From positions 1-35,520 of the forward strand of contig NZ_AUHY01000028.1 of the NCBI RefSeq assembly GCF_000423425.1: a DNA stretch of 35,520 nucleotides. Direction: 5' to 3'. Shown here one piece after another: positions 6,892 to 29,047 of the stretch; within the stretch, counting starts at the first letter, position 1, and the number at the start of each line of letters is the position of its first letter. A program made the position numbers and the translations under genes. The DNA comes from Meiothermus rufus DSM 22234. Lineage in GTDB: Bacteria; Deinococcota; Deinococci; Deinococcales; Thermaceae. The notes under the pieces were generated by a model. That model saw nothing but the letters and a program-made list of their open reading frames with translations, was not told the DNA's origin and did no database searches.

Positions 6892-7692
6892 GTGGCGCGA
6901 ACCCAGGCGGCAGCAGAGGTCATCGGGCAAATCCTGCAGCGAAAAGGGCTGCAGGCCGGGCTGCGCCGGGGTCAGGCCCTGGCGTTGTGGCCCCAGATTG
7001 CCGGCCCCGCCCTAAGCGGGCTAAGCCAGGCTGAGCGGCTGGAGGACGGGGTGCTGTTCGTGCGGGTAACCGATGCGGTGGTGGCTCACCAGCTCACCTA
7101 CCTGCGCGAGACTTTTGTCCAACGCTACCAGGAGAAGCTGCCTGGGGTGGTGCGCGAACTACGCTTCCAGGTGGGCTTAGAAAAGAAACCCCGCACCCAA
7201 CCCCAGCCCAGCCCCCGCCCCCCCCTCAGCCCCGAGGAGGAGGCCCGGCTGTGGGCGCTAGCCGAGCAGGCCCCACTCGAGCTGCGGGAGGCTATCCTGC
7301 GGGCCGGAAAAGCCGTTTTACAGCGGCAAAAGGAAAACCCCCACCCCCCCTGCCCCATCTGCCACCTGCCCAGTCCAGAACACCCCTGCCCCTCCTGCCA
7401 GAAGCTGCTGCGCGAACCCATTGTGCTGCGGGAAGCAGCGCGTCTGAGCCGCTTTCCTCTGAAGCCCTGCCTCGAGGGTCACCCCCTGGAGGCGGCCCGC
7501 TACCTGGCCCGAAGCCGGCTCGAGGCCCAGTTACGCGAGCTTTTGCCCCAGGTAATCCAGCAGCCCGACCTTATCCCCATTCTGCAGGACACCGCCCGGC
7601 GCTACCTGCAGCTTTGCACCGGCCAGCCAGAGGTGCGAACCCACCGCCACCTCCTCCCTCCCTCGCTGCAATCCCTCCTCAAAGAGGTATGA
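6892..7692 (+). CDS. DciA-like (DUF721) helicase-loader protein with zinc-ribbon motif
   Basis: The N-terminal part (about 1-95) fits DUF721/DciA: an opening helix with IGQILQRKGL, then LWPQIAGPALSGLSQAERL, GVLFVRVTDAVVAHQLTYLR and an ending VRELRFQVG. DciA is the ancestral bacterial factor that delivers the replicative helicase DnaB to DNA where DnaC/DnaI are lacking, and it often neighbours recF or gyrB. After a Pro-rich linker the protein (266 aa) carries a second helical region and four cysteines as C154-x2-C157 and C166-x2-C169, a zinc-ribbon pattern not part of the basic DciA fold. The GTG 6892 start has no ribosome binding site but a TAGCCT box six bases upstream. The domain call is by pattern recognition and would need a profile search. 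Confidence 0.75.
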   Translation: MARTQAAAEVIGQILQRKGLQAGLRRGQALALWPQIAGPALSGLSQAERLEDGVLFVRVTDAVVAHQLTYLRETFVQRYQEKLPGVVRELRFQVGLEKKPRTQPQPSPRPPLSPEEEARLWALAEQAPLELREAILRAGKAVLQRQKENPHPPCPICHLPSPEHPCPSCQKLLREPIVLREAARLSRFPLKPCLEGHPLEAARYLARSRLEAQLRELLPQVIQQPDLIPILQDTARRYLQLCTGQPEVRTHRHLLPPSLQSLLKEV

Positions 7693-26159: not shown

Positions 26160-26204
26160 TTATCCACAGGGGCATTTTCAGCCTGTGGATAACTTCAGTA
26201 GAAT
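26160..26204 (+). promoter_or_regulatory. dnaA promoter with two DnaA boxes
   Basis: TTATCCACA at 26160-26168 and its inverted copy TGTGGATAA at 26184-26192 are perfect DnaA boxes facing each other, followed by TAGAAT (26199-26204) as a -10 box. DnaA bound here would cover the -35 region, the usual way in which DnaA represses its own gene. Confidence 0.7.
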
Positions 26205-27550: not shown

Positions 27551-27830
27551 CTGGGCCGCGCAGAGCTGTGGATAGCTGGTATGGCCCTGTGGATAACTCT
27601 GTGGATAATCTGTGGATAACCCTGTGGATAGACTTGTGGATAAATGCCTTCTGGCCAGGCTTGTGGATAACCTCTCTCTTTATCCACAACTTATCCACAG
27701 GTTTTCCACAGTTTTCCCCACCTTTTATCCACAAGCCCAATTCGATACTTATGGGATTTCAGGCCCCTTATCCACATATCCACAGCCCCTACTACTACTA
27801 CTACTAATCTTTAAAATTTTTTTAGGAGTC
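27551..27830. other. oriC: Chromosomal replication origin oriC
   Basis: Between dnaA and dnaN lie 13 DnaA boxes. Seven are inverted (TGTGGATAA or TGTGGATAG at 27567, 27588, 27600, 27611, 27623, 27635, 27662), most spaced 11-12 bp apart. Six are direct (TTATCCACA or near variants at 27680, 27691, 27702, 27725, 27768, 27776). The last box is followed by GCCC, six CTA repeats (27789-27806) and an AT-rich stretch (27807-27827). This matches a bipartite origin with a DnaA-trio unwinding element. Thermus thermophilus is known to have 13 boxes in the same intergenic region. Confidence 0.95.
27789..27827 (+). other. DnaA-trio array and AT-rich unwinding element
   Basis: Six perfect CTA trinucleotides follow the last DnaA box after a short GC stretch, then AATCTTTAAAATTTTTTTAG. 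DnaA-trios, described in Bacillus subtilis as repeated 3'-GAT-5' on one strand, guide the DnaA filament from double-stranded boxes onto single-stranded DNA. Here the trinucleotides are uninterrupted. Confidence 0.8.
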
Positions 27831-27889
27831 GTAATTTAAAAAGGCCACTGCAAAAAAACAACGAAAAAGGTGTGATACGTGCCACGGGC

Positions 27890-27918: not shown

Positions 27919-27958
27919 ATCTGGGCTAGGGGGCGATTTGCCCAGCACGGAGGCCAGT

Positions 27959-29047
27959 GTGGAAGTTCGTATCCCCAAACGTACCCTTGCTGACGGGCTT
28001 TCCATCCTTGAACGGATTATTCCCAGCCGTAGCTCCAATCCCATCCTGAGCTATCTTCCCATTGGGCTTTCCGAGCAGGGTCTAGTTTTGCGGGGTACCA
28101 ATGGTGAAGTAGATATCGAGGTCAGGCTGCCCGCCGAGGTTCAAGGCCAGGGTCAGGTTTTGCTGCCAGCCCAAACCTTTTCCCAGATAGTTCGCAGCGC
28201 ACCTGGCGAGCTCATCGAGCTCATCTTTGCGGGGGAAGGTTCGCGCCTCGAGCTTCACTCAGGGGCTTTTAACACTCAACTGGCCACCACCAACCCAGAT
28301 GGCTATCCTGAGCTTTCCTTTGGCCAGCCTAGAGGGGAGAAAATCTCCGCTACAGGGCTAGCTCAGGCCATCACTCGGGTGCGCTACGCCGCAAGCAACG
28401 AAGAATACCGAGCCATCTTTCGGGGGGTGCAGCTGGAAATGTCCCCCAGTGGGTTGCGTTCAGTGGCTTCGGATGGCTTCCGCCTGGCCCGCTACGACCT
28501 ACCCATGCCGCTCGAGACCCGCAAGCTGGTGATCCCTGCCAAAAGCGCCGACGAGATTGTGCGGGTTTTCAAGGACGCCCCAGGGGAAATAGCCCTAGCC
28601 GTGGGAGAGGGTACCCTTACCCTCGTAGGGGAGTCGGTACGTATGTCGGTCAAGCTAATGGAGGGGGAGTTTCCTGACTACAACCGTGTTATTCCCCAAA
28701 ACTTCGTGTTGGAGGCCACCCTCCCCGCCGAGGCCCTGCGCGAGAGCCTCAAGCGGGTAGCGGTGCTTTCTGACCGCAACAACCACCGGGTCAACCTACT
28801 GTTCAACGCCGGCAAGCTAGACATCGACGCGGAAGGCGATTATGGCCGGGGCAGGGAAGAGCTGATCATCGAGGCCTCGGGTGAACCACAGCTGATGGTG
28901 GCCTACAACGCGCAGTATCTCATCGATGCCCTGACCCCCATCGAAGGGGCGGTGCGTATAAAACTTTCCGGTTCTACCAGCCCCAGCGTGTTGCAGGCGG
29001 TGGAGGATGCGGGGTATCTGGCGGTGGTGGTGCCGCTGCGGGTTTGA
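27959..29047 (+). CDS. dnaN: DNA polymerase III beta sliding clamp
   Basis: DnaN forms the ring clamp that tethers polymerase III. The 362-aa protein begins VEVRIPKRTLADGLSILERI and has SNPILSYLPIGL, three clamp domains, RGVQLEMSPSGLRSVASDGFRLA in the middle and the C-terminal hydrophobic-groove residues in YLAVVVPLRV. GTG 27959 is taken as the start since GGAGG precedes it by five bases and beta clamps begin at this point; the frame is open upstream, but those 29 codons overlap the promoter. Confidence 0.95.
   Translation: MEVRIPKRTLADGLSILERIIPSRSSNPILSYLPIGLSEQGLVLRGTNGEVDIEVRLPAEVQGQGQVLLPAQTFSQIVRSAPGELIELIFAGEGSRLELHSGAFNTQLATTNPDGYPELSFGQPRGEKISATGLAQAITRVRYAASNEEYRAIFRGVQLEMSPSGLRSVASDGFRLARYDLPMPLETRKLVIPAKSADEIVRVFKDAPGEIALAVGEGTLTLVGESVRMSVKLMEGEFPDYNRVIPQNFVLEATLPAEALRESLKRVAVLSDRNNHRVNLLFNAGKLDIDAEGDYGRGREELIIEASGEPQLMVAYNAQYLIDALTPIEGAVRIKLSGSTSPSVLQAVEDAGYLAVVVPLRV

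Follow-up and report, generated by a model that had tools for sequence, protein, structure and literature searches.

A predicted BUS-type chromosomal origin in Meiothermus rufus and a mirror-oriented trio-like tract beyond its unwinding element

The spacer between dnaA and dnaN on a 35,520-nt contig of Meiothermus rufus DSM 22234 (NZ_AUHY01000028.1; "the window" hereafter denotes this whole stretch of DNA) carries a dense group of DnaA boxes followed by six uninterrupted CTA repeats. This arrangement raises the question of whether the locus is an origin of an already known kind, and whether the perfection of its repeat or some other element sets it apart. The basal unwinding system (BUS) of Bacillus subtilis has been described for most bacteria. 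The features on which the analysis rests are given below, with DnaA boxes called at no more than one mismatch to TTATCCACA unless otherwise stated.

6913-7167, plus strand: DciA domain (PF05258), scoring over the family cut-off, likely replicative-helicase operator, on the same contig as the origin
26160-26168, plus strand, and 26184-26192, minus strand: pair of perfect DnaA boxes, oppositely oriented and spaced 24 bp from each other, on the upstream side of dnaA
26231-27550, plus strand: dnaA (439 aa; PDB match to B. subtilis DnaA, 8btg/8bv3)
27567, 27588, 27600, 27611, 27623, 27635 and 27662 (span 27567-27670), minus strand: seven DnaA boxes
27680, 27691, 27702, 27725, 27768 and 27776 (span 27680-27784), plus strand: six DnaA boxes
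27712-27720: degenerate DnaA box TTTTCCCCA, with two mismatches
27785-27788, plus strand: GC-rich spacer GCCC, leading from the last box to the trios (GCCC or GGCC in nearly all relatives)
27789-27806, minus strand: DnaA-trio array 1, CTA x6 on the top strand, read on the bottom strand as 5'-(TAG)6-3' followed by GGGC and the box
27802-27841: AT-rich duplex unwinding element, the weakest 40-bp duplex of the window
27823-27834, plus strand: array 2, a mirror-oriented trio-like tract TAG GAG TCG TAA (shuffle p = 0.004 and 0.007)
27949-29047, plus strand: dnaN with its ribosome site GGAGG (27949-27953), placed from the sequence and from the alignments of relatives

Two marks of a chromosomal oriC coincide at this locus: dnaA and dnaN are linked, and the cumulative GC skew within the contig reaches its minimum in the intervals spanning the two genes. 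The locus also has the unstable AT-rich element that adjoins the trios in a BUS, as nearest-neighbour energies place the weakest 40-bp duplex of the 35.5-kb contig at 27802-27841, where the mean dG is -1.062 and lies about 5 sd from the average of the window (-1.559, sd 0.099). When the BUS definition of PMC8287927 is applied, the box at 27776-27784 is seen to have at least three NAN trios within 16 bp, on the correct strand, with a 4-nt spacer and six TAG units. This box (ATATCCACA) stands in tandem with, and overlaps by one base, the better and conserved box at 27768-27776 (TTATCCACA), which is located 12 bp from the first CTA and hence inside the 10-13 bp peak reported for the distance between box and first trio (PMC8287927). 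The initial annotation had described a last box followed by GCCC, six perfect CTA units and an AT-rich stretch, and had interpreted the repeat as a DnaA-trio array; the description is exact, and GCCC and CTA occupy the right place and the right strand of oriC for that interpretation. Judged by its sequence, the dnaA-dnaN spacer is a canonical, BUS-type chromosomal oriC. The origin is ordinary in kind, following the already known DnaA-box and DnaA-trio plan, and the earlier observation of it was correct.

The box clusters conform to the same picture. Counting both strands, the whole window contains 20 box matches where 2.46 would be expected, and this total of 20 was not attained in any of 100 shuffles. 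Within the spacer we recovered the 13 boxes, seven inverted and six direct, that had been reported, whereas the 11-12 bp spacing ascribed to the inverted set applies to four of its six intervals, the other two being 21 and 27; along the plus strand the boxes follow one another at intervals of 11, 11, 23, 43 and 8. Comparison of the dnaA-dnaN spacers of 48 Thermaceae and about 40 other genomes of the phylum identified this layout as the family norm: 25 of the 48 Thermaceae spacers have exactly seven and six boxes, nearly all others depart from it by one or two, and seven minus-strand boxes are present in most.

The proteins encoded by the window and its relatives are compatible with this type of origin. 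The window DnaA, a 76 percent match to that of Thermus igniterrae, aligns over its full length with B. subtilis DnaA and retains, as I184, I187 and R258, the ISM isoleucines that bind single-stranded DNA (I190 and I193) and the arginine finger (R264) associated with a BUS. DciA was detected in all 50 Thermaceae genomes searched and DnaD (PF07261) in none of the 50, with a positive control in B. subtilis, so that an origin of the type that pairs DnaD with its recognition element (DRE) is not indicated; a search of the window's genome for DnaC/DnaI-type loaders returned only DnaA itself above the cut-off. We consider, with a probability of roughly 0.93, that the locus as a whole is best explained as a Thermaceae oriC using the BUS mechanism, in which array 1 serves for loading, the AT-rich element for melting and a DciA-type path for the helicase. 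Its anatomy, position, conservation and duplex weakness, the conserved DnaA residues, the presence of DciA and the absence of DnaD are established, and filament loading, unwinding and helicase loading we infer from homologous systems. By this analogy, DnaA would occupy both oppositely oriented box clusters, and the plus-strand tandem pair beside GCCC would steer a DnaA oligomer onto the bottom strand, with one protomer for each TAG trio of array 1. The oligomer would melt the adjoining AT-rich element and keep it open, and the helicase would then be loaded through the DciA-type pathway. The central A of each trio (T on the top strand) would be the base that counts, and CTA x6 would be a six-unit array of the normal kind, if a highly regular one.

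What does depart from the known plan is a second trio-like tract, of the form ([N]A[G/A])n, which Thermaceae origins carry on the strand opposite array 1 and beyond the AT-rich stretch. In Thermus it reads TAG TAR NAG CAG TAR, and in the window's genus it consists of AAG, GAG and TAG runs. Scored with a profile trained on array 1, the top strand beats dinucleotide shuffles (p<0.05) in 36 of 47 genomes and the bottom strand in 0 of 47; with an NAR profile, array 2 does so in 40 of the 47, drawn from all five genera, against 0 of 47 for the reverse strand, these counts being subject to the choice of the NAR profile after array 2 had been seen and to the relatedness, and hence non-independence, of the 47 genomes. 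Outside Thermaceae, the remaining families of the phylum showed no detectable tract (1 of 31 anchored sites), and the mirror test on non-Thermaceae loci yielded 5 of 80 top strands at p<0.05, about the level of chance, although this is a rough baseline in that the trio finder misplaced many sites. Array 2 also varies in the manner of trios, keeping the middle A and leaving the outer bases free with a period of three. Units 2 and 3 of the Thermus tract have a middle A in all 38 distinct cells (19 distinct arrays) while their outer bases vary, and on the dnaA tree the middle columns of these units are unchanged, against zero to seven changes in the flanking columns. The pattern is weaker in the window, where one unit is TCG. 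A trio array would further be expected to have a box on its 3' side, and in Thermaceae spacers no minus-strand box was found on the side of array 2 that faces dnaN, which means that a filament could not spread onto array 2 from an adjoining box.

Two other roles are the main rivals for array 2. It may belong to the leader of dnaN, as a purine-rich stretch before the Shine-Dalgarno site or as a promoter element, and not to the origin. The tract is indeed rich in purines, and in Thermus it lies 5-12 nt before the ribosome site. In the window, dnaN probably starts at GTG 27959 and not at the mechanical ORF start of 27872, which would be about 87 nt too early, because most relatives align from about residue 20-30 of the mechanical ORF and GGAGG precedes this GTG; the leader between the trios and dnaN is consequently longer than the list of ORFs suggests. 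Throughout the window's genus, array 2 lies mostly 13-27 nt from array 1, and the dnaN start follows at distances of about 110 to more than 900 nt further downstream. That array 2 keeps its place beside array 1 despite this shifting of dnaN indicates that it belongs with the origin and not with the gene. Moreover, when other Shine-Dalgarno leaders taken from the same DNA were put through this test, only 5 of 180 reached p<0.05, compared with 40 of 47 array 2 tracts; among tiles of the window the rate was 4.6 percent. A leader role is hence unlikely, if still worth bearing in mind.

The alternative that arrays 1 and 2 are the arms of an inverted repeat, forming a hairpin or cruciform, would attribute their likeness to base pairing, given that CTACTA and TAGTAG are reverse complements. 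Arms taken from the same genome pair slightly better than swapped arms (p = 0.039 in Thermus and p = 0.079 in the window's genus, with relatedness uncontrolled), but neither strand of the region in the window folds better than its shuffles, the CGR break in array 1 of Thermus has no consistent partner in array 2, and array 2 retains its middle A while the flanking letters change. Pairing arms thus appear a distinctly improbable origin for the resemblance.

Our preferred, if tentative, interpretation of array 2 is that it provides a landing site on the strand opposite array 1, the lineage being one with DciA and without DnaD. Its likeliest role, by analogy with the strand recruitment of Thermotoga maritima (PMC10316083), would be to let DnaA on the oppositely oriented boxes capture the top strand in trans, and it may help to open or load that strand. 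Put together, these elements would make up an origin with facing trio arrays on both strands across the unwinding element, in which each box cluster supplies a DnaA oligomer that captures one strand, in trans for array 2, and both strands are thereby marked, so that two helicases could be loaded in opposite directions with the help of DciA and no DnaD. We hold this combined scheme to be conceivable but on balance doubtful. We found no description of trio arrays on both strands in the literature within reach of our search, most subscription papers (the 2016 trio paper, for instance) lying outside that reach.

The perfection of array 1, in comparison, matters less than the observation of array 2. 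The (CTA)6 sequence occurs once in the 2.74-Mb genome. Six in-phase trio units are present in all 17 members of the genus with a readable spacer, and in all 17 every unit has T in the middle position of the top strand, positions 1 and 3 being variable. The initial annotation had presented the perfect regularity as a special property, and this view did not survive the comparison: exact CTA x6 is found in four of the 17, the rest having TTA, GTA, CTG or CTC units, and CTA x6 four bases from a box core is found in 7 of 111 genomes of the phylum, distant ones included, in a set where all genomes are labelled as the window's own order and none is recognisable as Deinococcus. It had also named a loss of the CTA run with retention of the boxes as a contrary outcome; no such loss was seen, as the array survives in degenerate form in relatives. 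In 78 dnaA loci from outside the phylum, perfect CTA runs near a box core extend to three units at most, which puts the window on the regular side, and the six units are not a high count, since 7-10 trios are cited as common in a review (PMC6727663). The perfection of CTA x6 is thus the regular end of a distribution, above average and not a conserved trait, the tidy end of normal variation, and to speak of a specially perfect trio is to describe no more than one species. Strand slippage can produce perfect trinucleotide runs, and the exact repeat is sporadic within the genus, but a microsatellite with no role beyond its AT content is highly implausible, because array 1 always follows a box and a 4-nt spacer and holds its number of units fixed while undergoing substitutions and not changes in length, which argues against simple repeat slippage.

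In Thermus, array 1 reads CTA CTA CTA CGR CTA, and its fourth unit is almost always CGA or CGG in this genus and its sister genus. On the trio strand that unit has a middle base other than A, which interrupts the array and constitutes a natural exception to the NAN rule; the three box-proximal units show no middle-base change on the dnaA tree. The existence of deviant trios had been suspected by Pelliciari et al. (PMC8287927). Thermus, with its naturally broken fourth unit, and the window, with the plainest array, offer natural variants for testing which trios count. These Thermus relatives share the mostly seven-and-six box layouts of the window and differ from it in the interruption at unit 4, and closely spaced, clustered boxes are attributed to the T. 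thermophilus oriC of Schaper et al. (2000) as cited in PMC6727663.

Among characterized systems, the BUS of B. subtilis (DnaA boxes 6/7, GC-rich spacer and DnaA-trios) has the same order, strand, spacer, trinucleotide and dnaA-dnaN site as the window. Its trios, CTACTATTACTTCTACTA (PMC10201434), are degenerate, as had been stated for Bacillus, in contrast with the six perfect CTA units of the window, which further differs in having no DnaD and an extra mirror tract on the top strand. DnaD acts in B. subtilis as the reader of the strand opposite the trios (PMC10201434), so that without DnaD the window has no known reader of that strand. The DRE, a paired TnnT, resembles array 2 as a signal opposite the trios that has been proposed to specify the second helicase; the DRE, however, is the complement of the trios themselves, whereas array 2 lies beyond the AT-rich stretch and itself reads as trios. 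In Deinococcus radiodurans, of the same phylum, 13 boxes are likewise reported at oriCI (PMC7988490), but they are arranged 4/9 over about 500 bp and not in a compact 7/6 over about 220 bp as in the window; unwinding in vitro by its DnaA requires its boxes, trios and I190 (PMC8287927). The eTrio of the thermophile Thermotoga maritima, TAG x3, offers a parallel in perfect TAG repeats bound as a single strand by DnaA oligomers. It is located between the annotated trios and a TTATT motif, away from the box, while the perfect run of the window adjoins its box, and the second tract of the window, unlike this arrangement, is on the other strand. Strand recruitment has been described for T. maritima, where the annotated trios played only a supporting part, the binding itself being due to the separate TAG x3 motif (PMC10316083), so the role of an array cannot be read from its sequence alone.

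The window origin has a practical value, in that it comes from a thermophile whose trio array is the plainest; the mirror tract is what merits further pursuit. According to PMC10721633 and PMC10201434, it is unknown how two helicases come to be placed on opposite strands, and for this question the conserved trio tract on the opposite strand, in a lineage with DciA but not DnaD, provides a specific sequence to mutate.

Two further observations concern boxes elsewhere. The perfect pair at 26160-26192, upstream of dnaA and outside the interval covered by the initial annotation (27551-27830), may serve dnaA autoregulation or be a second DnaA site. With at most one mismatch allowed, both boxes recur at a similar position in 10 other members of the genus and one box in 3 more, and the pair was not found in Thermus relatives. 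In Bacterium UASB270, the region about 290-350 nt after dnaA contains trios (CTACTACGACTACGA), an AT-rich stretch, TAGTAGAGAAAG and a reversed DnaA box (TGTGGATAA), an arrangement resembling, by its sequence, a mirrored BUS equipped with a box of its own.
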